Shown: in pieces, positions 5,773-20,676 of the stretch | Layout of the letters: the number at the start of each line of letters is the position of its first letter | How positions within the stretch are numbered: the first letter of the stretch is position 1 | Origin: a virus | IMG/VR virus record: IMGVR_UViG_3300013132_005653 | Coordinates: 1-36,723 of that record | DNA: 36,723 nt | Direction: 5' to 3' (one strand) | Program-made: the position numbers and the translations under genes | Notes under the pieces: generated by a model | Database searches by the model: none | Seen by the model: the letters and a program-made list of their open reading frames with translations, nothing else | Told to the model about the DNA's origin: nothing

Positions 5773-6698
5773 AGATTCTTACAATATCTTCTCCTGGCGG
5801 TGACAGGGGACCGGCAATTGGCTATAAAAATCACCTGAGCGCGCTGAGGTCAGGTGGGATCGACATTGTTGATATCAATCAAGATATCTGGAACTCATCA
5901 TCAAAAATGAAAGCTTTCGATGTTGCATGGGCCTATGTCAGATTCAATCAGATCATATACGATCGATGCATGGAGTTAGGCATACCAATAATTGGAGGTC
6001 CCAATATCGCACTCGAGAGAGCTGACTTGGGAATATCTGACGCGTGGGAGCGTTGGTACCTTACTAGATCTGGTGTGAGCATCAATCTAAATGTCGCTGA
6101 CTACTATTCTGATCATGTAAGAAAATTTGTCACTAGTAACATGAGCTGCAAGACGCTTGAGTACTGTTATGAATCCAATGATGTTTTGAGCGCGTCACGT
6201 AGTGAAGATCAGGTTGATGTCTTGATCTATGAGAAGGATAGAGTCAATGATGGCAAGTCTAGTTCCAGAGTCGTTGCACTTCAACTTGAGCTGAATAGGG
6301 CTGGCTTGAGTCATCGAACTGTCGTATACGGTAGTCATACAAGGGAAGAGTACATTAAAGAGTGTCTCGGCGCCAGAGTTTGTGCATGGCTTAGCATTGA
6401 AGACTATTGTAGCCTTGCACAGATAGAGTCTCATTTAGCTGGTTGTTGTGTTGTGGGGACTCAATACAATCTAACAATTCCTACTATCCGTGATTGTTTA
6501 GTTGATGATGCGCAGTATACTGACAACTGGATAACGTGGTCTGACGATGAAACAGTAGCCAGGGCATATGTGAATTCAATCCAAAAAGTTATCTCCACGC
6601 CTGCCCTAGACAAGGCTACAAGAGACGCGGCTAAACTTAGACATTCTTATGACTATTATTGCAAAAGATCGACCCAATTAATACAAGAGGTTCTATGA
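5769..6698 (+). CDS. GT4-like (GT-B fold) glycosyltransferase
   Basis: A 309-residue protein with a GTG start overlapping the previous stop (GTGA). The N-terminus MKILTISSPGGDRG and the following YKNHLSAL match the start of group 1 glycosyltransferases, where a Gly-rich loop is followed by a helix. The C-terminal Rossmann half carries YGSHTREEYIKECLGARVCAW and a SLAQIESHLAGCCVVGT element standing in for the usual E..A.G.P...T donor site. The catalytic E-x7-E motif is not clear, so divergence or an atypical donor is possible. A/T-rich codon use marks the start of the low-GC block. Confidence 0.65.
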   Translation: MKILTISSPGGDRGPAIGYKNHLSALRSGGIDIVDINQDIWNSSSKMKAFDVAWAYVRFNQIIYDRCMELGIPIIGGPNIALERADLGISDAWERWYLTRSGVSINLNVADYYSDHVRKFVTSNMSCKTLEYCYESNDVLSASRSEDQVDVLIYEKDRVNDGKSSSRVVALQLELNRAGLSHRTVVYGSHTREEYIKECLGARVCAWLSIEDYCSLAQIESHLAGCCVVGTQYNLTIPTIRDCLVDDAQYTDNWITWSDDETVARAYVNSIQKVISTPALDKATRDAAKLRHSYDYYCKRSTQLIQEVL

Positions 6699-7102
6699 CA
6701 GAAGACAGACGATATTTGCCAACGTTGTCTGAGCTAGTTGACAGGCTCTCAATTGTGCAGCTCAAGGAAGTTTTCATTCCAGATCACAAAGATGAGTATT
6801 CACATGAGATTAGTGATATTGTGCATGATATTCAGCTCTTACTGGATCAGAGCAACGCCAGACTCACAGCAGACGTTGTCAGGGCAATTGTTGTGCTTTC
6901 ACAAATGAACCTTCACATATGGCACAACGAATCAAATTACCGGAAGGGAATCAAGGACGGCAACAATTTAGAGCTTACGCATGGGCTCAATGGTATTAGA
7001 AACACTGCGAAAAACCGCATACAGGAAGTTGTTGGGGGAAGAAAAGACTATAAGATTGACTGCCTTGCGGCTGAGTTTAGCGATTGGGAGGTTAGCTGGT
7101 GA
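6695..7102 (+). CDS. DUF4254-like protein of glycan clusters
   Basis: A 135-residue protein; the ATG at 6695 overlaps the previous stop. It starts with TLSELVDRLSIVQLKEVF and contains MNLHIWHNESNYRKG and LNGIRNTAKNRI. The pattern of Asn-x-x-x-Trp-His followed by a charged pair and then N..RN...N.I resembles DUF4254 proteins, which sit beside glycosyltransferase genes and have no assigned reaction. It is mostly helical with no membrane segment. Its location between two sugar genes fits that context. The family call is by eye and only moderately certain. Confidence 0.5.
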   Translation: MTEDRRYLPTLSELVDRLSIVQLKEVFIPDHKDEYSHEISDIVHDIQLLLDQSNARLTADVVRAIVVLSQMNLHIWHNESNYRKGIKDGNNLELTHGLNGIRNTAKNRIQEVVGGRKDYKIDCLAAEFSDWEVSW

Positions 7103-7104
7103 GT

Positions 7105-7410
7105 ATGGAGAGTCAACCAAAGACACTAGATGAATACTATCACTACTATCTGACTCTTCACACTAACAAGATGTGCCGTCGTCTTCATGCGCTGGGACAG
7201 ATTTCCACGATTCTATTTGTCATTGCAGTACTGGCATATGGTCACCCTCTAATGCTTTTAGCAACACCATTTATCGTGTATCCATTTGCATGGACAGGGC
7301 ATTTCTTTTTCGAAAAGAACAAGCCGGCAGCGTTCAAGGATCCAGTTAAGGCCAAGATCTGTGACTGGATTATGCTCAAAGACATGATAATTGGGAGAAT
7401 ACCTCTATGA
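7105..7410 (+). CDS. DUF962 / Mpo1-like small membrane protein
   Basis: A 101-residue protein (103 if the GTG at 7099, which overlaps the previous stop, is used). It has the DUF962 layout: an N-terminal amphipathic part YYHYYLTLHTNKMCRRLHALG with His19 and His28, two hydrophobic segments at about 32-45 and 48-64, then FAWTGHFFFEKNKPAAF with His66 and a WIMLKDMIIG end. In yeast the family member Mpo1 is an Fe-dependent dioxygenase acting on 2-hydroxy fatty acids; bacterial members are mostly uncharacterised. The histidines expected to bind metal are present. A lipid-modifying role near the host membrane is inference. It is unusual inside a phage glycan operon. Confidence 0.8.
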   Translation: MESQPKTLDEYYHYYLTLHTNKMCRRLHALGQISTILFVIAVLAYGHPLMLLATPFIVYPFAWTGHFFFEKNKPAAFKDPVKAKICDWIMLKDMIIGRIPL

Positions 7411-8336
7411 AAAAAGTTCTGATCACCGGCGGCGCCGGTTACATTGGCAGTCATCTCATACAACACTTTATTGACGATCACCACGTAACCGTGGTTGACA
7501 GTCTAATGTATGAAAAGACCAGCCTGTTAGGGTACATCACAAAGAGAAATTTTGAGTTTGTCAAGGCTGATGTGAGAGACTCCAGGGTTCTAGAGCCTCT
7601 AATTCAGAGATCTGATATTGTGATTCCCTTGGCTGCTCTGGTTGGATTTCCACTCTGCGACAAGCATCCTCGCGATGCAATTGAAGTCAATCGTGATGTA
7701 AATGTTACGCTAGCAAAGAGTAAGAGCAAGGATCAGATTGTAGTGTATCCATGCACAAATTCAGGATATGGAGCGTCTGATAGCACAAAGCCATGCACCG
7801 AAGATTCTCCCATGAATCCTATCACCCTTTATGGTCGCACGAAGGTTGAAGCTGAGAATGCATTTCGTGAATCTGCAAACTGTACAACCCTTAGGCTGGC
7901 GACCGTCTTTGGTCCATCCCCCAGGATGAGAACAGATCTTCTTGTGAATAACTTTGTTCTCAAGGCCCTCAGGGATAGGTCACTAGTGCTTTATGAGGAT
8001 TCATACAAGCGAAATTATGTCCACATCCATGATGTATCCAGGGCTTTCAGGTTTATTATCGACAATTGGGATAAATGCTCCAATCAGACATTCAACGTAG
8101 GTAATGACTCCCTCAACTGCACGAAGAGAGAGTTAGCTGATCAAATTTCCGACATGATTCCGTCCAAGATCTATATTGCTAACAATGCAAAAGACCCAGA
8201 TCAGAGAGACTATGTTGTGTCAAGTCAGAGAATCTATGAAAAGGGATTTAGCTGTTCCATGAACCTCAAGGATGGCATTGAGCAGCTAAAGGTTGCATAC
8301 TCTTTGATAGACGGGCCGTGGCATGCCAATTACTGA
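7407..8336 (+). CDS. NAD-dependent sugar epimerase/dehydratase (extended SDR)
   Basis: A 309-residue extended SDR enzyme overlapping its neighbour by four bases. The NAD-binding GGAGYIGSH lies at the N-terminus, the active-site YGRTK has Tyr142 and Lys146, and the upstream CTNSGYG loop supplies the Ser/Thr. Length is normal for the family. It would act on a nucleotide sugar, for example by 4-epimerisation or dehydration; the substrate cannot be read from these motifs. The gene overlaps the following glycosyltransferase by 14 bases. Confidence 0.88.
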   Translation: MKKVLITGGAGYIGSHLIQHFIDDHHVTVVDSLMYEKTSLLGYITKRNFEFVKADVRDSRVLEPLIQRSDIVIPLAALVGFPLCDKHPRDAIEVNRDVNVTLAKSKSKDQIVVYPCTNSGYGASDSTKPCTEDSPMNPITLYGRTKVEAENAFRESANCTTLRLATVFGPSPRMRTDLLVNNFVLKALRDRSLVLYEDSYKRNYVHIHDVSRAFRFIIDNWDKCSNQTFNVGNDSLNCTKRELADQISDMIPSKIYIANNAKDPDQRDYVVSSQRIYEKGFSCSMNLKDGIEQLKVAYSLIDGPWHANY

Positions 8337-9072
8337 ATCGACATCGCCTAGCATTGGTATATTCTGCCCTACTAGAAAAAGACCGGCAATGCTATTGAGG
8401 CTCATCGATAGTATTGCTACAAACGCTACAAATATTGAGAGAGTTCACTTTGCCTTTTACGTAGACAGCGATGATGAATTGACACAGGGATTTATCAAAG
8501 ATCTCCGTGAAAAAACAAGTCTAAATGTGACGGCCGTGATCGAGCCTCATGGAAGCCGTCCCCTATCTGACATGTACAATGTTCTGTACAAGCATTGTCC
8601 AGTTGACATCATGATGCAGTTCGGAGATGACACCGTCATGAGGACGATGGGATGGGATGTCATGATAGAGGAAGCATTCTCTTCTTATCATGATAGACTA
8701 GTCCTTGTCTATGGCAAAGATGGAATTCACAATGAGGGATTTGCTCCTCACTATGCTCTTCACAAAAACTGGATTGAAACTTTAGGATATGCATCTCCTC
8801 CCTATTTCACAGCAGACTGGTCTGACACATGGATGTTCGAAATTGCTAAGCAGATTGGTAGAAACATGTTCTTGCCAGGCCTTATGATAGAGCACATGCA
8901 CTGGTCTCAAGGAAAATCAAGCGTTGATGAGACAACCGTGATCTCAGAAATTAGAAGAAGAAATCACAACAATGAAGCCCTATACAGGTCAGAAAGAATG
9001 CAGAACGAGCGCGCTCTGGCTGTCTCTAGGCTTAGGGAAAAGTTGATTGTTCAAACTGGAAATAAACAATGA
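8323..9072 (+). CDS. GT2-like glycosyltransferase
   Basis: A 249-residue protein with a typical GT-A start (IGIFCPTRKRPAML), a YVDSDDEL loop and the metal-binding FGDDTVM (Asp102/Asp103). The C-terminal part is long, helical and charged. The sequence resembles short phage and bacterial GT2-like proteins for which the donor is unknown. The ATG at 8323 overlaps the preceding gene and the stop overlaps the following ATG, so expression must be coupled. Confidence 0.8.
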   Translation: MPITESTSPSIGIFCPTRKRPAMLLRLIDSIATNATNIERVHFAFYVDSDDELTQGFIKDLREKTSLNVTAVIEPHGSRPLSDMYNVLYKHCPVDIMMQFGDDTVMRTMGWDVMIEEAFSSYHDRLVLVYGKDGIHNEGFAPHYALHKNWIETLGYASPPYFTADWSDTWMFEIAKQIGRNMFLPGLMIEHMHWSQGKSSVDETTVISEIRRRNHNNEALYRSERMQNERALAVSRLREKLIVQTGNKQ

Positions 9073-10592
9073 TTGACATTCTTTTTGTACACCCAAATGC
9101 GTCTAAGATAATCTACCAAGACCTTAGCGAGAAGCATGCAGCTATAGAGCCGCCCATATGGGCGGCAATGCTAGCAAATTCCGTTAGATCAGCCGGCCGC
9201 TCTACTGCTATTCTGGACGCGGAGGTGGAAAATCTCACCAGCGAAGGTGCAGCCAAGCGGGCCCTTGAGTATGGTGCAAGAATTATTTGTTTTGTTGTTT
9301 ACGGACAGCAGCCTAGTGCATCATCACAGAACATGACTGGAGCTGTTGCAACGGCCAATGAGATAAAGAAAATTGATCCGGAGTCATTCATCCTGTTTGT
9401 CGGTGGACATGTAGCCGCCCTTCCTAGATTGACATTGGAAGATGAGCCTTCAATCGATGCTGTCTGTCAGAACGAAGGTGTGTATACAATTCGCAACCTA
9501 TTGCAGGTTGTGGATCTCACTAGTGACAGTCAATTGAGTAAGGTGGCCGGCCTAGGATTTAGAAGCTCCTTGGGAATTCCAGTGATCAATGCACCAGAAA
9601 AAATTGTGCCAAGGTCACAGCTACACATAGATCTGCCTGGAATGGCGTGGGATCTGTTGCCAGACCTATCCAGGTACAGAACTGCAGGATGGCACTCGTG
9701 GTCTAACAATTCTCAAAAGGCGCCATTTGCCTCCATCTACACATCACTCGGCTGTCCCTATCGCTGTTCATTTTGTATGATCAACATCATCAACAGGACA
9801 AGTAACTCTGAATCAGCGACCAGTGCCGACAGCAACACATTCAGGTACTGGGATCCTGAGTTTATCATCGGTCAGTTTGATCACATTGCAAAAATGGGTG
9901 TCCGCAATGTGAAGATAGCAGATGAACTATTTGTCCTCAACCCACGTCACTTTGAGACAATTTGCGACATGATCATTGAGAGGGGTTATGACTTCAACAT
10001 TTGGGCCTACTCTCGAATTGATACGTGCAAGCCACAGTACCTTGAAAAGCTAAAGAAGGCCGGCATCAATTGGTTGGCTTTAGGAATTGAAAATCCTAGC
10101 ACTATTCTACGCAAAGAAATCCACAAGGACGGATACAAGGAGATTCGAATCATAGACATCATGAATTCCATGAAAGACTCAGGGATTCATGTGGCTGCAA
10201 ACTACATCTTTGGCTTGCCACTAGACACCCACGACTCTATGAAAGAGACTCTAGATTTTGCAATGAGTAATATGACCGAGATGGTCAATGTCTATTCTGC
10301 CATGGCATACCCAGGCAGTCCACTCTATATGGAAGCAAAGAAAAGAGGCGTTGCACTTCCTGATCGATATGAGGGTTATAGCCAGCACTCATACATGACT
10401 CAGAATTTGTCAAATGAGAACCTTACTGCCGCCGAAATTCTCAAGTTTAGAGATGATGCTTGGATGAAGTATCACACGCATGAGCCTTATCTCAAAATGC
10501 TAGAAGGCACATTTGGCATTGAGGCTAGAAATGACGTTGAGCAGACGTCTAAAATTAGACTAAAGCGAAAACTTCTAAATGATCCAGAGTGA
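9069..10592 (+). CDS. Radical SAM protein with an N-terminal B12-binding-like domain
   Basis: A 507-residue protein. Residues 1-160 form a Rossmann-like domain with ILFVHPN, the IEPPIWAAMLA turn and the FVGGHVAALPRLTLEDEP strand, which is the layout of cobalamin-binding domains of class B radical SAM enzymes, but no DxHxxG cobalamin histidine motif is visible. The radical SAM core begins at YTSLGCPYRCSFC, with Cys229, Cys233 and Cys236 in CxxxCxxC spacing for the [4Fe-4S] cluster. Later strands (WLALGIENPS, NYIFGLPLDT) match the TIM-barrel core. Members modify lipids, sugars, peptides or cofactors, often by methylation. The substrate is unknown; the setting suggests a sugar or lipid. Confidence 0.85.
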   Translation: MIDILFVHPNASKIIYQDLSEKHAAIEPPIWAAMLANSVRSAGRSTAILDAEVENLTSEGAAKRALEYGARIICFVVYGQQPSASSQNMTGAVATANEIKKIDPESFILFVGGHVAALPRLTLEDEPSIDAVCQNEGVYTIRNLLQVVDLTSDSQLSKVAGLGFRSSLGIPVINAPEKIVPRSQLHIDLPGMAWDLLPDLSRYRTAGWHSWSNNSQKAPFASIYTSLGCPYRCSFCMINIINRTSNSESATSADSNTFRYWDPEFIIGQFDHIAKMGVRNVKIADELFVLNPRHFETICDMIIERGYDFNIWAYSRIDTCKPQYLEKLKKAGINWLALGIENPSTILRKEIHKDGYKEIRIIDIMNSMKDSGIHVAANYIFGLPLDTHDSMKETLDFAMSNMTEMVNVYSAMAYPGSPLYMEAKKRGVALPDRYEGYSQHSYMTQNLSNENLTAAEILKFRDDAWMKYHTHEPYLKMLEGTFGIEARNDVEQTSKIRLKRKLLNDPE

Positions 10593-10602
10593 GAGGTTAT
10601 AA

Positions 10603-11217
10603 ATGAAGACAAATTGGACGAAGGAGTCTCTAATTGAGTTTGAGAACTCTGTGGCAGAGAAATTCAACCAATCAATGATCAGGGCTCCTGTTCATCTTCA
10701 CAACGGAAATGAAGATCAGTTGCTTGAATTATTCGAGGACATTAGCGAAGATGACTGGGTCTTCTCTAGTTGGAGAAGTCATTATCACTGTTTGCTAAAG
10801 GGTGTCCCTCCGGAAGAGCTAATGGCAGACATTCTAGCTGGTAGATCTATTTCTCTCTGCTTTGATAAGCAGAGAGTCGTCTGTTCGGGTATTGTCACAG
10901 GTACCGTTCCTATCGCACTAGGAACTGCTCTTGACATAAAGCGCTCAGGAGGTAGCGAGAGAGTCTGGTGCTTCATGGGTGACATGACTAGTGAAACTGG
11001 CATTGCTCATGAGTGCATTAAGTACGCCAGAAACTTTGACCTTCCTATCACGTATGTCATAGAAGACAATGGAAAGTCAGTCTGCACAGACACCAGGAAG
11101 ACGTGGGGCTTGAAAAGCTTGACTAACTCTGCTAAACTTGACAAGCACGTGAGGTACTATAGCTATGAGCTGAACAAGTATCCACACGCTGGAGCAGGGA
11201 AGAGAGTGCAATTTTGA
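10603..11217 (+). CDS. Thiamine-diphosphate enzyme, E1-alpha-like subunit (short)
   Basis: A 204-residue protein. After WRSHYHCLLKG and the ...GRSIS turn comes a glycine-rich VTGTVPIALGTALDIKRSGG segment, as in E1-alpha of 2-oxoacid dehydrogenases. The thiamine-diphosphate motif runs from Gly126-Asp127 to Asn156 within IEDNGKSV, although the usual GDG is GDM here. It stops soon after the cofactor site, about 120 residues shorter than full E1-alpha. It overlaps the gene for the partner domain, so the two polypeptides probably form one enzyme. An RBS GAGAGG precedes the ATG. Chemistry is likely a 2-oxo acid decarboxylation or ketol transfer; the substrate is unknown. Confidence 0.82.
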   Translation: MKTNWTKESLIEFENSVAEKFNQSMIRAPVHLHNGNEDQLLELFEDISEDDWVFSSWRSHYHCLLKGVPPEELMADILAGRSISLCFDKQRVVCSGIVTGTVPIALGTALDIKRSGGSERVWCFMGDMTSETGIAHECIKYARNFDLPITYVIEDNGKSVCTDTRKTWGLKSLTNSAKLDKHVRYYSYELNKYPHAGAGKRVQF

Positions 11218-11753
11218 TGAAGTACTTTGATGAACTCAAGAAATCTATGACCTGGCTTGGTGAAAAATCCAATACTGTTTTTATTGGCCAGGCCGTAGAA
11301 TATGCTGGGACTGCAATGACTAACACATTGACGGATGTGTCGGCCTCTAAGAAAATTGAAATGCCAGTCAGCGAAGAAATGCAGACAGGCATGACTTTAG
11401 GAATGTCTCTCACAGGGACAGTTCCTATTTCCATCTATCCTCGATGGAATTTTCTTCTATTAGGCGTAAATCAACTCGTTAATCACATTGATAAGCTACC
11501 TGAATATTCATGCGGTCGCTACATGCCTCGAATCATCATTCGAACCGGCATAGGTTCAGTAAGACCTCTACACCCCCAGCACCAACATGTAGGAGACTTT
11601 ACTGAGCCGTTTAGAATGATGCTTAGAAATGTAGACGTCATTAGATTAGATGAGCCGGAGATGATTTTTGAGTCATACCAAAAAGCATATGAAAGAACTG
11701 ACGGCAAGAGCACAATTTTGGTGGAGTGGGGAGACTATTACAGCGAAAAGTGA
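11217..11753 (+). CDS. Thiamine-diphosphate enzyme, E1-beta-like subunit (pyrimidine domain only)
   Basis: A 178-residue protein; the ATG at 11217 shares its first base with the stop of the alpha-like gene. The segment MPVSEEMQTGMTLGMSLTG contains Glu53 in the position of the glutamate that activates the cofactor's aminopyrimidine. The PRWNFLLLGVNQLVNH and LHPQHQHVGDFTEPF elements match the dimer-facing part of E1-beta. The protein ends where the C-terminal transketolase-like domain of E1-beta would begin, so only the pyrimidine domain is kept. Together with the previous gene this is a minimal two-polypeptide enzyme. Confidence 0.82.
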   Translation: MKYFDELKKSMTWLGEKSNTVFIGQAVEYAGTAMTNTLTDVSASKKIEMPVSEEMQTGMTLGMSLTGTVPISIYPRWNFLLLGVNQLVNHIDKLPEYSCGRYMPRIIIRTGIGSVRPLHPQHQHVGDFTEPFRMMLRNVDVIRLDEPEMIFESYQKAYERTDGKSTILVEWGDYYSEK

Positions 11754-13562: not shown

Positions 13563-13572
13563 CTTGGAAAAA

Positions 13573-14385
13573 ATGTCTAGAAACCCTTCCTATAAAGTCG
13601 GTATTGTGGGTCTTGGTGTTGTAGGTTCTGCCTGCAAGTTTGGTTTCGAAAAGCTTGGTCACCAGACAAGATTCCACGACCCCAAGCTCGGTACGAGTCT
13701 AAGCGATGTTCTTGACACCGACATGGTTTTCCTCTGTGTGCCGACACCGCCCTGCGACGACGGCTCATGTGATATCTCTATAGTCGATGAAACAATTTCA
13801 AGGTTGGACGATGCAAGATACAGCGGGCTGATAGTGATAAAGTCGACTGTTTCACCTGGAACCACGGCTCGTCTATCCCAAAAGTACCCAAACCGCAGGA
13901 TCGGATTTGTACCAGAGTTCCTGAGAGAGAGGTGCGCAATCTCTGACTTTGTCGAGAACCACAGGCTTCTTGCGGTCGGATGCGCCAACGAAGAAGACTA
14001 CAGGCTTGTTGTCAGCGTTCACGGTCACTATCCCAAGAAAACTAGACGCATGGGAGTCTCTGAGGCTGAAATGCTCAAGTACTATTCCAACGTCTTCAAT
14101 GCACTGAGAATCATCTTTGCCAATGAAGTCTACGAAGTCTGCAATGCAATAGGAGTCGATTACGATGAAGTTAAAAACGCGTACATTGAAACTGGTGCAG
14201 TACCGGATGTCTACCTTGACGTGAATGAAAATTTCAGAGGGTATGGAGGCATTTGCTTGCCGAAAGACGTGAAGGCACTTGCAAATCTAATCGAGAGTCT
14301 TGGGCTAGACCATGAACTCATCAGGACAATCGACAAGGAAAACTCCAAGTACAAGACAACCGTCTTCAGTGGGATGAGACTATGA
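13573..14385 (+). CDS. Short UDP-glucose/GDP-mannose 6-dehydrogenase family protein
   Basis: A 270-residue protein; the ATG at 13573 is preferred to the TTG three codons upstream. The N-terminal Rossmann motif GLGVVG, FLCVPTP and IKSTVSPGTT are standard for the family, and the catalytic GGICLPKD with Cys228 is intact. The full enzyme has about 430 residues including a C-terminal nucleotide-sugar-binding domain, which is missing here. The central helical region that forms the dimer is present. It may oxidise a sugar nucleotide to the uronate with altered substrate binding, or need a partner. It overlaps the following SDR gene by four bases. Confidence 0.85.
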   Translation: MSRNPSYKVGIVGLGVVGSACKFGFEKLGHQTRFHDPKLGTSLSDVLDTDMVFLCVPTPPCDDGSCDISIVDETISRLDDARYSGLIVIKSTVSPGTTARLSQKYPNRRIGFVPEFLRERCAISDFVENHRLLAVGCANEEDYRLVVSVHGHYPKKTRRMGVSEAEMLKYYSNVFNALRIIFANEVYEVCNAIGVDYDEVKNAYIETGAVPDVYLDVNENFRGYGGICLPKDVKALANLIESLGLDHELIRTIDKENSKYKTTVFSGMRL

Positions 14386-17016: not shown

Positions 17017-17568
17017 GTGTTGAAACTGAACGTTGGCTGTGGCAGCAGAAAGATTCACGGTTTCGTGAATCTTGACGCTAGAAGTGACGTCAATCCTGAT
17101 GCCGTCTGCGACGTGTCTTCAGTGTCAAAGTCTTACTCTAATGTTGACTTGATCTACGCTTGTCATGTTCTTGAACACTTCTCCAAGAAGCAGTCAAGTC
17201 ACAGTACACTCACGTGGAATGACATCCTCAAGGACTGGTACAGCGCTCTAAGAGAGGGCGGAATTCTCAGGATATCTGTCCCAGATTTTAAGAAGGTATG
17301 CGATCACTATAGAGAGAATAAGAACCTTGACGCAATCATGTGCTTGATCTATGGGGGGCAAAATTACGATTTTGACTTTCATTTTCATGCTTGGGACTTT
17401 GAGACGCTAAAAAGAGATCTCAAGTCGGTCGGTTTTAGGGAAGTGAGAGCTTATGACTGGAGAAACACCGAACATCACTACGTTGATGACTACAGCCAGT
17501 CATATCTTCCACACATGGACAAGCTCAACGGAATGCCCATGAGTCTCAATGTGGAAGCTGTCAAATGA
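17017..17568 (+). CDS. Class I SAM-dependent methyltransferase
   Basis: A 183-residue protein with a GTG start and an AGGTGA site. LNVGCGSRKIHGFVNLD is the S-adenosylmethionine-binding loop and first acidic strand; CHVLEHFS is motif III and GGILRISVPD is the later strand. Such small methyltransferases next to glycosyltransferases often cap or methylate a sugar. The His-rich FDFHFHAWDFETLKRDL and the WRNTEHHY end are consistent with this sub-family. It overlaps the RmlC-like gene by four bases. Confidence 0.85.
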   Translation: MLKLNVGCGSRKIHGFVNLDARSDVNPDAVCDVSSVSKSYSNVDLIYACHVLEHFSKKQSSHSTLTWNDILKDWYSALREGGILRISVPDFKKVCDHYRENKNLDAIMCLIYGGQNYDFDFHFHAWDFETLKRDLKSVGFREVRAYDWRNTEHHYVDDYSQSYLPHMDKLNGMPMSLNVEAVK

Positions 17569-18095
17569 GTTACATTGTCACTAAGACAGAGATACCCGGG
17601 ACTTTGATCATAGATTCTGACTCCTTTGACGATAGCAGGGGCTCTCTTTGGACACTCTACGAGGAAGGATCAATCGAGGTTCCAAGATTCATTCAGGACA
17701 AGGTCTCTGTGTCAAATCCCAAAGTGATCAGAGGGCTTCACGGTGATCCTGATACCGGTAAGTTGATCACCTGTTTTGCGGGTGAGTGTTTTCTTGCAGT
17801 CGTAGACGCTAGAAAAGAATCAGAGACTTTCATGAAGCACTTCACAGTGACCTTGCGCTCGTGTGACAGAAAGTCGGTGTATGTCCCGCCTGGTTGTCTG
17901 AATGGTCATGCAGTGATCTCACAAGACCCTTGTGTGTTCTTCTACAAGTGGACACACAGATATACAGGGCCATCTTCTCAATATACCGTTCATTACGGAG
18001 ATCCTGATCTTTCTATCAAGTGGCCGATTGAATCTCCGATAATCTCTGATAGAGACAAAAAGGCTTCAACTTTCAAGGAAGTTCTATGCAGATAA
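17565..18095 (+). CDS. RmlC-like nucleotide-sugar 3,5-epimerase
   Basis: A 176-residue cupin-fold protein matching dTDP-4-dehydrorhamnose 3,5-epimerase in length and layout. The segment VIRGLHGDPDTGKLI contains the catalytic-histidine RGLH motif (His59); the FAGECFLAVVDAR strand and VYVPPGCLNGHAVIS follow as in RmlC. It would epimerise a 4-keto sugar. Whether the substrate is dTDP- or GDP-linked cannot be read from sequence. It overlaps the following PLP-enzyme gene by ten bases. Confidence 0.85.
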   Translation: MSYIVTKTEIPGTLIIDSDSFDDSRGSLWTLYEEGSIEVPRFIQDKVSVSNPKVIRGLHGDPDTGKLITCFAGECFLAVVDARKESETFMKHFTVTLRSCDRKSVYVPPGCLNGHAVISQDPCVFFYKWTHRYTGPSSQYTVHYGDPDLSIKWPIESPIISDRDKKASTFKEVLCR

Positions 18096-19249
18096 AGTAC
18101 CCGCTTGCCAAGGAAACCATCAACGCTGAAGACATCAACGCGTTGATTGAGTGGTTGAAGACCGGACCGCGACTGACAAAGGGAAATCTCACTCTTCAAG
18201 TTGAGAGAAAGTGGGCAGACTTTGTCGGAACCAAGTACTCCGTCTTCTGCAACTCCGGGTCATCCGCAAATCTCTTGATGGCATATGCTCTCAAGTGTTC
18301 TCAGCCAAGAAACATGAAGGTCGTTGTCCCGTCAGTCGGGTGGGTCACGACAATCGCGCCATTTATGCAATTTGGGTTTGAGACAATCATGGTCGGAGCT
18401 GACAGCAAGACATTTGGGATTGATCTTGACGATCTTGAGAGAGTCTGTGTTGAGCATTCTCCTGCTGCAGTGATCTTTGTGCAGGTTCTAGGGGTTCCTC
18501 ACTACAAGGATCGTCTCATTGAACTGTCGAAGAAGTACGACTTTGCGATACTTGAGGACGCCTGTGCTGCCCTCGGTGCTGAGTATTCAGATGGTTCCAA
18601 GGTCGGCACTGTCGGAAAGATGTCGAGCTTCTCATTCTACTTTGGTCACCAGCTTTCTACCATTGAGGGTGGAATGGTGAACACAGACGACTATGAGACG
18701 TACCAGACACTCCTGATGCTGAGAAGTCACGGCTGGGGGAAGGACCTTGATTCTCAGAAGCACGAAGAGCTTGTGAATGAGCACTGCGTAGATGACTTTC
18801 ACAAGCCTTTCACTTTCTTCCTCCCCGGATTTAATGTTCGTGCTACAGATCTCCAGGCGTTCATCGGACTCAGACAGGTGGAGAAGGCTGGCTGGGTCTC
18901 TGAGAGACGTAACTCAAATCACAGGCGTTATGCTCACAACCTGAACGGTCTCCTGCAGTTTCAGGAGTGGGGTGACAACGTACCAGTGTCAATCTCTTTC
19001 GGTGCTCTTGCAGCCTCGAAAGAACAGCGCACTCGGATCGTGAATGCCCTTGTTCAGGCCGGCATCGAGACAAGAATCTTCAGCGCAGGGAATCTTGGTT
19101 GCCATCCTTTTTGGACCAAGGAGAACGGAGAGTTTCGGCACGACTTCTCTGACAGGATTCACTCTTGTGGATTCTTTGTCCCAAACTACCCGGAGCTGAC
19201 TGACTCCGAGGTGGATCATATCTGTGAAGTGATAAAGAGCGCACTTTGA
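18086..19249 (+). CDS. DegT/DnrJ-family PLP enzyme with His188 (ColD-like sugar 3-dehydratase)
   Basis: A 387-residue member of the DegT/DnrJ/EryC1/StrS fold. NSGSSANLLM binds the phosphate of PLP and EDACAALGAEY contains the aspartate for the pyridine nitrogen. Where aminotransferases carry the Schiff-base lysine, this protein has histidine (residue 188, in FYFGHQLSTIEGGM). That is the signature of GDP-4-keto-6-deoxymannose 3-dehydratase (ColD) and related 3-dehydratases making 3,6-dideoxy sugars such as colitose, and the residue number coincides with ColD. It therefore most likely removes the 3-OH of a 4-keto-6-deoxy sugar rather than adding an amino group. A partner 4,6-dehydratase is not evident in the window. 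Confidence 0.85.
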   Translation: MQIKYPLAKETINAEDINALIEWLKTGPRLTKGNLTLQVERKWADFVGTKYSVFCNSGSSANLLMAYALKCSQPRNMKVVVPSVGWVTTIAPFMQFGFETIMVGADSKTFGIDLDDLERVCVEHSPAAVIFVQVLGVPHYKDRLIELSKKYDFAILEDACAALGAEYSDGSKVGTVGKMSSFSFYFGHQLSTIEGGMVNTDDYETYQTLLMLRSHGWGKDLDSQKHEELVNEHCVDDFHKPFTFFLPGFNVRATDLQAFIGLRQVEKAGWVSERRNSNHRRYAHNLNGLLQFQEWGDNVPVSISFGALAASKEQRTRIVNALVQAGIETRIFSAGNLGCHPFWTKENGEFRHDFSDRIHSCGFFVPNYPELTDSEVDHICEVIKSAL

Positions 19250-19980
19250 GATTTCTAGTTATTGGAGAGTCTTGTCTTGACGTGTTTGTCTATGGAGGGG
19301 TTTCAAGGATAGCACCTGAAGCTCCAATTCCTGTCCTCGTCAAGGAAAGCACGAATAAGAATGCTGGGATGGCTTCTAATGTTGCAAACAATCTCATAGC
19401 CCTTGGCTGCCATGTCACGCTTCACACCAACTCAAACTGGCAGACTATCAAGAAAACACGTTTTGTTGAGTCTAAGAGCAATCACATGTTCATGAGACTT
19501 GATGAAAATGATGAAGATTATGGCTCTTGCGACCTCTCATCCGTGAATATTGAGTCTTACGATTGTGTGATTGTGTCAGACTACAATAAGGGATGGTTAT
19601 CGTCCGACCAGATACGCGAAATTGGTGATAGATCAAAGCTTTGCTTTTTAGATACGAAGAAGATACTTGGCAAGTGGGCAGAGACAGTCACGTTTATCAA
19701 GATCAATGAGAATGAGTATGAGAGAACAAAGGATGTCCTAGGCGATAATGTCAATGAAAAGCTTATAATCACCCTAGGTCCTCTGGGCGCTAGTCACAAA
19801 GGTACAGTATACCCGTGCCCATCAGTACAAAGACTAGACTCAGCCGGAGCAGGTGATACTTTTGTGTCTGGTCTTGCTAAAATGTACTGTGAAACTCGTG
19901 ATGTATCGAGGTCGATTGAGTTTGCGAATGAATGTGCCTCAATTGTCGTGCAGAAAAAAGGGGTTTCAACAATAAGATGA
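19246..19980 (+). CDS. PfkB-family kinase, HldE kinase-domain-like
   Basis: A 244-residue protein. The TTG start overlaps the previous stop. The opening VIGESCLDVFVYG...SRIAPEAPIPV matches the heptose-7-phosphate kinase half of HldE, NAGMASNVANNLIALG is the substrate-binding loop, and the PfkB catalytic GAGD lies at residues 201-204. It is shorter than the usual 310-320 residues. With the next gene it reproduces the two halves of HldE as separate proteins, which make ADP-heptose from heptose 7-phosphate. A GmhA isomerase is not seen in the window. Confidence 0.83.
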   Translation: MRFLVIGESCLDVFVYGGVSRIAPEAPIPVLVKESTNKNAGMASNVANNLIALGCHVTLHTNSNWQTIKKTRFVESKSNHMFMRLDENDEDYGSCDLSSVNIESYDCVIVSDYNKGWLSSDQIREIGDRSKLCFLDTKKILGKWAETVTFIKINENEYERTKDVLGDNVNEKLIITLGPLGASHKGTVYPCPSVQRLDSAGAGDTFVSGLAKMYCETRDVSRSIEFANECASIVVQKKGVSTIR

Positions 19981-20366
19981 TTGTCTGGACAAATGGATGC
20001 TTTGATATCATACACGCAGGGCATGTGTATTTGTTAGAGTATGCTAGGGGTTTAGGCAGTAAGCTAATTGTGGGACTAGATACTGATGATCGGGTGAAAT
20101 CAAACAAGGGATTGGCTAGGCCTATTCACACCTTAGAGCAAAGAATGAAAGTTGTATCGTCTTTGCGACCGGTCGACAAAGTTGTCAGTTTTTCAAGTGA
20201 TGATGAATTAGTCGATAGAATTAGGCAAGAAAGTGCCTCACTGATAGTTGTCGGCAGTGACTACGTTGGGCGACGTGTTCTTGGTAGCGACATTGCTGAC
20301 GTTCATTATTTCAAGAGAATACCTGATCTTTCTAGCACAAGGATTATCAATGCGAATAGTCTTTGA
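19977..20366 (+). CDS. HldE adenylyltransferase-domain-like nucleotidyltransferase
   Basis: A 129-residue protein; the ATG at 19977 overlaps the previous stop (ATGA), and upstream in-frame starts are out of context. It shows the nucleotidyltransferase HxGH motif (HAGH, residues 13-16) within TNGCFDIIHAGHVYLLEYA, then GLDTDDRVKSNKG and RPVDKVVSF. This is the layout of the second half of HldE (RfaE2), which transfers AMP to heptose 1-phosphate; glycerol-3-phosphate cytidylyltransferases share the fold and remain a weaker alternative. It overlaps the HAD gene by 17 bases. Confidence 0.85.
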   Translation: MIVWTNGCFDIIHAGHVYLLEYARGLGSKLIVGLDTDDRVKSNKGLARPIHTLEQRMKVVSSLRPVDKVVSFSSDDELVDRIRQESASLIVVGSDYVGRRVLGSDIADVHYFKRIPDLSSTRIINANSL

Positions 20367-20676
20367 CCTAGATGGGACCCTGTGTACTAATACAGAGGGT
20401 GAGTACAAAGACGCAAAGCCTCTCTACGAAAGAATTGCCGTAGTGAATTCTCACTATAGCGCCGGTGATCATATTACCATCATGACCGCCCGCGGAATGG
20501 GCAGAACTAACAATAATGTCGACTTGGCAAAAGAATTATTCGAGGAGTTGACAAAGAAACAGCTTTTTGATTGGGGCGTAAACTATCATAGTCTCATTCT
20601 AGGAAAGCCATCTGCCGACTTGTACGTTGATGATAAAGGGGTAAAAGATGTCGAATTTTTTAAAAACTCGAGGTGA
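20350..20676 (+). CDS. Small HAD-superfamily phosphatase
   Basis: A 108-residue protein; the ATG at 20350 directly starts MRIVFDLDGTLC, so the longer upstream frame is not needed. Motif I has Asp6/Asp8, motif II is MTARG, Lys86 in GKPSAD is motif III and VDDKG (Asp94/Asp95) is motif IV. The cap domain is minimal. Small HADs of this type occur in capsule clusters. In this setting it may remove a phosphate from a sugar phosphate (compare GmhB, a HAD-family heptose bisphosphatase), but it is not recognisably GmhB. It overlaps the cupin gene by 29 bases. Confidence 0.82.
   Translation: MRIVFDLDGTLCTNTEGEYKDAKPLYERIAVVNSHYSAGDHITIMTARGMGRTNNNVDLAKELFEELTKKQLFDWGVNYHSLILGKPSADLYVDDKGVKDVEFFKNSR

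Follow-up and report, generated by a model that had tools for sequence, protein, structure and literature searches.

A phage-encoded protein of the DegT/DnrJ/EryC1 family that carries a histidine in place of the lysine of its aminotransferase relatives raises two questions, namely which reaction it catalyzes and which sugar it acts on. The gene lies on the plus strand at 18086-19249 of the window, meaning here the whole 36,723-base stretch of a virus record that encodes tailed-phage baseplate genes. It is an exact open reading frame of 387 codons plus stop, and its product of 387 amino acids matches the Pfam family PF01041 (DegT/DnrJ/EryC1; 2e-63). Residue 188, within FSFYFGHQLSTIEGGM in the translation of 18086-19249, is a histidine (codon 18647-18649, plus strand), and lysine is missing from the position that forms the internal aldimine in the aminotransferases of this family. 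In the alignment, the counterpart of this residue in ColD is the catalytic His188, and ColD mutants deposited in the PDB alter the same column, either to asparagine (3b8x, H188N) or to lysine (2r0t and 3gr9, H188K). The reading frame and its histidine, both reported in a preliminary description of this DNA, are thus real. The gene belongs to a tight series, in which its first 10 bases are shared with an RmlC-like gene upstream and a kinase gene begins at its stop.

For a comparison, 53 viral and 57 bacterial relatives of the protein were retrieved. All 54 viral rows, the window included, have histidine at the column of residue 188, and this invariance argues that His188 is due to neither chance nor error. 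Since one of the search patterns itself contained the His188 motif, the count was repeated on viral loci found through the adjacent kinase, about eight of which sit on contigs already present in the first viral set; here the aligned DegT proteins carry histidine in 40 cases out of 42 and lysine in the other two. These loci were obtained with an alignment query, and a reverse search with a single kinase sequence gave no match. Across 161 DegT rows, which include the DegT proteins of six bacterial whole genomes, position 188 is occupied by histidine (139) or lysine (22) and by no other residue.

A maximum-likelihood tree places the window protein within the clade of His-bearing 3-dehydratases, together with ColD, with a single change between lysine and histidine, and its placement among the His-bearing rows is unchanged when residues 155-200 are removed. 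Uniting the protein with the lysine rows, again with the active-site columns removed, lowers the log-likelihood by 138 and is rejected (AU test, p 0.0003), so that an aminotransferase with a shifted lysine is ruled out. The fine placement of ColD is less sure, because the tree comes from a quick search and some rows have long branches. ColD is also the best sequence match (4e-53), followed by E1 (7e-32) and by aminotransferases (1e-26 or weaker), and it is the closest solved structure to an AlphaFold2 model of the protein (pLDDT 94; VIA Z 47.5). The runners-up in structure are the next family (Z 44.7) and E1 (Z 44.0), a modest margin given that the whole superfamily has the same fold. Taken together, His188, the tree with its AU test and the top rank of ColD in both structure and sequence make it very probable that the protein is a PMP-dependent nucleotide-sugar 3-dehydratase and not an aminotransferase. 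The same had been proposed in the preliminary description, and the proposal is borne out by the predicted structure as well as by the phylogeny against ColD, RfbH and DegT aminotransferases.

Within the His-bearing enzymes, two characterised types come into question. E1 (RfbH, CDP-4-keto-6-deoxyglucose 3-dehydrase, PDB 3bcx) shares the superfamily and the catalytic histidine. It carries an iron-sulfur cluster ([2Fe-2S], four cysteines) and needs the reductase E3; a sequence comparison with E1 finds no counterpart of the Cys segment in the window protein, and the score against the E1/RfbH model NF011936 is 186, compared with a cut-off of 423. The missing segment and the different clade in the tree rule out this type. 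With ColD (E. coli GDP-4-keto-6-deoxy-D-mannose 3-dehydratase, PDB 2gms) the protein has in common the fold, His188 in place of lysine and the lack of an E1-type Cys segment, and its Asp158 and Arg330 are in register with Asp159 and Arg331 of ColD. By analogy with the mechanism of the ColD family (PMC8987622), a 4-keto nucleotide sugar would be bound by PMP as a Schiff base, and His188 would then take the proton from C4' of the cofactor. Loss of the hydroxyl at C3 and hydrolysis of the intermediate would follow, after which glutamate would regenerate PMP and yield 2-oxoglutarate. These steps are known for ColD. As in ColD and unlike in E1, an iron-sulfur reductase partner would not be needed.

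The window protein differs from ColD at two positions, where Ala161 and Gln189 replace Glu162 and His189. The two residues occur paired in 102 out of 102 sampled clade members besides the window, whereas other ColD-like and E1-like rows pair glutamate or aspartate with histidine. Both are adjacent to the cofactor, both differ from every characterised 3-dehydratase examined, and the clade that they mark corresponds to one side of a starred branch in the tree. The separate clade, the identity of 31% to ColD and the Ala161/Gln189 pair mean that the substrate of ColD is not transferable to the window enzyme by homology. The pair might also mark an altered chemistry, i.e., a PLP enzyme devoid of the lysine but with another outcome, for instance an aminotransferase or epimerase, and SpnQ is indeed able to transaminate without its reductase (PMC8987622). 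Such an outcome is considered highly improbable: the protein retains His188 as well as the remaining ColD-like positions, its clade nests with 3-dehydratases, and no transamination was seen with ColD or E1 under conditions that allowed it in SpnQ (PMC8987622).

The neighbouring genes, all on the plus strand, give indications of the sugar on which the predicted 3-dehydratase would act. The presumed source of its 4-keto substrate is an SDR protein (7407-8336) related to Cj1427, the GDP-heptose C4-dehydrogenase of the Campylobacter jejuni capsule; it is similar to the Cj1427 structures 6vo6/6vo8 over its full length (45% identity, E 3e-84) and has the residues TNSGYG where 4,6-dehydratases carry an acidic motif. 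The RmlC-type 3- and/or 5-epimerase (17565-18095) finds its best PDB match in the C. jejuni GDP-4-keto-heptose 3-epimerase (8dak, E 5e-29). The gene coupled to the dehydratase stop codon (19246-19980) encodes a compact PfkB-type sugar kinase similar to HldE/HldA (heptose 7-phosphate kinase), with HldA as best PDB match by profile and rfaE_dom_I as best model (126 bits, curated cut-off 345). It is followed by a candidate nucleotidyltransferase resembling the C-terminal part of HldE (19932-20366), which matches the HldE nucleotidyltransferase model below the curated cut-off, and by a small HAD phosphatase-like protein of the EcbF/BcbF type (20248-20676; weak match) that possibly fills the role of GmhB. 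The kinase and nucleotidyltransferase genes together resemble an HldE divided in two. Neither a GMD-type 4,6-dehydratase nor an Fcl/ColC-type (colitose synthase) gene is recognisable in the 36,723-base window, which is a fragment.

The linkage to these partners was followed through the relatives. A strong Cj1427-like gene occurs in 42 of the 50 viral records with the dehydratase, and its absence from the remaining eight says little because the records are 13.9-45.4 kb in length. Bacterial dehydratase loci possess a Cj1427-like gene in 53 out of 57 cases, or in 53 of the 55 with the Ala/Gln signature; a GMD-like gene was found in none of these 55 within the retrieved flanks. The genome of Nitrospira defluvii contains the bacterial form of the cluster (L075). 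In 39 of 53 viral loci, a PfkB kinase lies directly downstream of the dehydratase. Cellular homologues of this kinase were not found beside the bacterial dehydratase, where a different kinase family is present: 46 of the 57 bacterial loci encode a kinase of the GHMP family, which is unrelated to the PfkB fold and most similar to heptose kinases of the HddA type, and 41 encode an HddC/ManC-like nucleotidyltransferase. The principal argument for a heptose substrate is that one dehydratase clade is accompanied by heptose-type kinases of two unrelated families; such a substrate is also suggested by the near-constant Cj1427-like gene and by the best match of the RmlC-like protein. A heptose is therefore considered likely to be the substrate, in preference to a hexose. 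Several observations point in the other direction. The matches of the kinase and the nucleotidyltransferase to heptose families remain below the curated cut-offs, by similarity the viral nucleotidyltransferase belongs with the ADP-heptose type whereas Cj1427 uses GDP-heptose, and GMD-like genes occur near the dehydratase in some viral relatives. Furthermore, a GmhA-type isomerase was not found in 30 viral records, so that the host would have to supply heptose 7-phosphate.

About a dozen viral relatives (L001, L012-L014, L018, L019, L026, L028, L034, L049, L135) have a gene for a GMD-like 4,6-dehydratase with an SSSE motif in the vicinity of the dehydratase, and in L001, the nearest viral relative, that gene lies directly upstream. 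The idea that 4,6-dehydratases are absent from all related viral clusters was consequently dropped, and 3,6-dideoxy products become possible. One such product would be a 3,6-dideoxyhexose such as colitose, to which the preliminary description had assigned the pathway. The window enzyme would then dehydrate GDP-4-keto-6-deoxymannose, or a 6-deoxyhexose bound to another nucleotide, in the manner of ColD, and a host gene, or a gene beyond the 36.7-kb fragment, would supply the 4,6-dehydratase. In favour of this reading, no characterised enzyme is nearer than ColD, a GMD-like gene stands beside the dehydratase in L001, L012-L014, L018, L028 and L034, and phages can carry gene trios of the colitose type. 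One example is cyanophage ACG-2014f, in which, as in its sister records, an annotated aminotransferase (L323:13974-15167; NC_026927.1 162882-164075) has the active-site residues of ColD (His, Glu, His-His) and adjoins a GMD gene scoring above the curated cut-off and a GDP-fucose-synthase (Fcl)-like gene. From their sequences, these three genes probably represent a misannotated colitose-type trio. The window differs from it in having neither recognisable GMD/Fcl-like partners nor the Glu/His pair of ColD; its dehydratase is accompanied instead by a Cj1427-like dehydrogenase, and its neighbours resemble GDP-heptose genes. With the separate Ala161/Gln189 clade and the distribution of Cj1427-like and GMD-like genes in its 55 bacterial loci, this leaves the assignment to a colitose-like pathway unlikely. 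A plain colitose pathway was rejected for the window itself, in which GMD and Fcl are missing, and is kept as a rival owing to L001 and the other relatives.

The chemistry required for a heptose substrate has been described in vitro by the Raushel group. According to their report (PMC10680097), the C3-dehydratase of C. jejuni HS:5, supplied with PLP and glutamate, deoxygenates GDP-6-deoxy-4-keto-heptose; it takes both 6-deoxy and 6-hydroxy substrates and, when combined with Cj1427, yields GDP-3-deoxy-4-keto-heptose, for which an m/z of about 616 is reported. A second report (PMC10440746) gives 62-67% identity between the HS:5 enzyme and two earlier characterised C3-dehydratases, from which it would group with ColD and outside the clade of the window enzyme. 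The HS:5/HS:11 system for 3,6-dideoxy-heptose resembles the window in the types of partner enzymes and in the glutamate-driven C3 deoxygenation of a 4-keto-heptose nucleotide predicted here; the difference is that the natural substrate of the HS:5 enzyme is supplied by a 4,6-dehydratase (PMC10440746). A similar route in the phage would convert a 6-deoxy-4-keto-heptose into a 3,6-dideoxy-heptose, with a GMD/DmhA-like enzyme missing from the fragment. The heptose-type neighbours, the GMD-like genes of close viral relatives and the tolerance of the HS:5 enzyme for 6-deoxy and 6-hydroxy substrates alike (PMC10680097) are consistent with this route, which is nevertheless judged improbable in view of a window in which no 4,6-dehydratase is recognisable and of a near-constant partner that is a C4-dehydrogenase.

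The combined explanation that fits best, and that is held to be somewhat more probable than its negation on the basis of gene content and sequence, is that the window dehydratase forms an NDP-3-deoxy-4-keto-heptose from a 4-keto-heptose nucleotide provided by the Cj1427-like C4-dehydrogenase at 7407-8336. The product would keep its C6 hydroxyl, given that the window shows no 4,6-dehydratase; the chances of this detail are about even. From there, the RmlC-type enzyme could epimerise the NDP-3-deoxy-4-keto-heptose ahead of a reduction, or a thiamine-diphosphate enzyme could introduce a branch at C4. The dehydratase and dehydrogenase steps could feed each other, since the former would release 2-oxoglutarate and published Cj1427 assays were supplied with 2-oxoglutarate. 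The Cj1427 module of the C. jejuni capsule combines a C4-dehydrogenase, an RmlC-type epimerase and GDP-heptose, and relatives of both enzymes are encoded in the window; the C. jejuni papers, in the parts available, give Cj1427 no natural 3-dehydratase partner and combine the two activities only in vitro, whereas in the window the same two types of activity appear, judging by the genes, to be paired naturally. In the open-licence full-text literature, GDP-3-deoxy-heptoses were found only in PMC10680097, as in vitro products of mixed C. jejuni enzymes, the one other match being an unrelated use of the terms; no natural pathway was found.

The candidate for the branching step is encoded by two overlapping small genes on the plus strand, which together specify a minimal split thiamine-diphosphate enzyme of 204 + 179 amino acids devoid of the transketolase C-terminal domain. 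The first (10603-11217) resembles, by profile similarity, the PP-binding part of an E1-alpha-like subunit, and the second (11214-11753) an E1-beta-like subunit without C-terminal domain. There is a precedent in paulomycin biosynthesis, where a 4-keto deoxysugar receives a two-carbon unit from an E1 alpha/beta-like pair; avilamycin and kosinostatin are named as comparable cases, and for yersiniose the enzyme is instead a thiamine-diphosphate flavoprotein (PMC4802897). As in the yersiniose, avilamycin and paulomycin cases, a 4-keto deoxysugar and a thiamine-diphosphate enzyme would be associated in one cluster; unlike in those cases, the viral subunits lack the C-terminal domain. By this analogy, one may speculate that the viral pair attaches a two-carbon unit to C4 of the 4-keto sugar. 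A natural sequence of C4 oxidation and C3 deoxygenation of a nucleotide-heptose, carried out by the Ala161/Gln189 clade, common to marine phages and Nitrospira/Elusimicrobia-type bacteria and perhaps followed by C4 branching through this minimal enzyme, is put forward tentatively, as a proposal that may well prove wrong in this full form. If true, phages and environmental bacteria carry out naturally a reaction sequence known so far from the test tube (PMC10680097), and they do so with a novel clade of 3-dehydratases that departs from the active site of ColD at two coupled positions. The proposal would also provide a testable substrate for many phage sugar genes whose annotation goes no further than aminotransferase, epimerase or unknown, and would recommend that phage DegT "aminotransferases" be checked for a histidine at the lysine position.

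The linkage between the dehydratase and its partners is strong in one direction only, because the kinase block and the Cj1427-like gene are often found without it. Out of 80 viral loci collected through their Cj1427-like gene, 60 have no DegT gene within 10 kb and only 16 have a His-type DegT within that distance; an E1-alpha-like gene occurs in 44 and an RmlC-like gene in 42. As a predictor of the dehydratase, the Cj1427-like gene therefore failed, and the kinase block is likewise present in many viral clusters that lack the dehydratase. On this pattern, the C4-dehydrogenase seems to serve as a general entry to the pathway, from which the dehydratase would be an optional branch.

A megablast search of the gene cluster against phage records gave no match. 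A contig binned as a Chlamydiia MAG encodes a dehydratase (L055:9998-11173) that is 66-67% identical and nested in the viral clade, which points to a link with a host or else to a viral contig placed in the wrong bin. Further genes of the window recur in related clusters. A protein of 147 amino acids (6659-7102), for which neither Pfam nor PHROG gave a match at the chosen thresholds, is found in 56 of the 80 viral Cj1427-like loci and is likely a member of the sugar pathway. Directly before the Cj1427-like gene lies an Mpo1-like gene (7099-7410; 2-hydroxy-palmitic acid dioxygenase family) that recurs in viral sugar clusters. A UDP-glucose/GDP-mannose dehydrogenase-like protein of 273 amino acids (13564-14385), comprising the N-terminal and central domains only, occurs in 15 of 53 viral loci. 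A B12-binding radical SAM enzyme (9069-10592, plus strand) is encoded in 15 of the 53 viral loci and also in the bacterial clusters (37 of 57).
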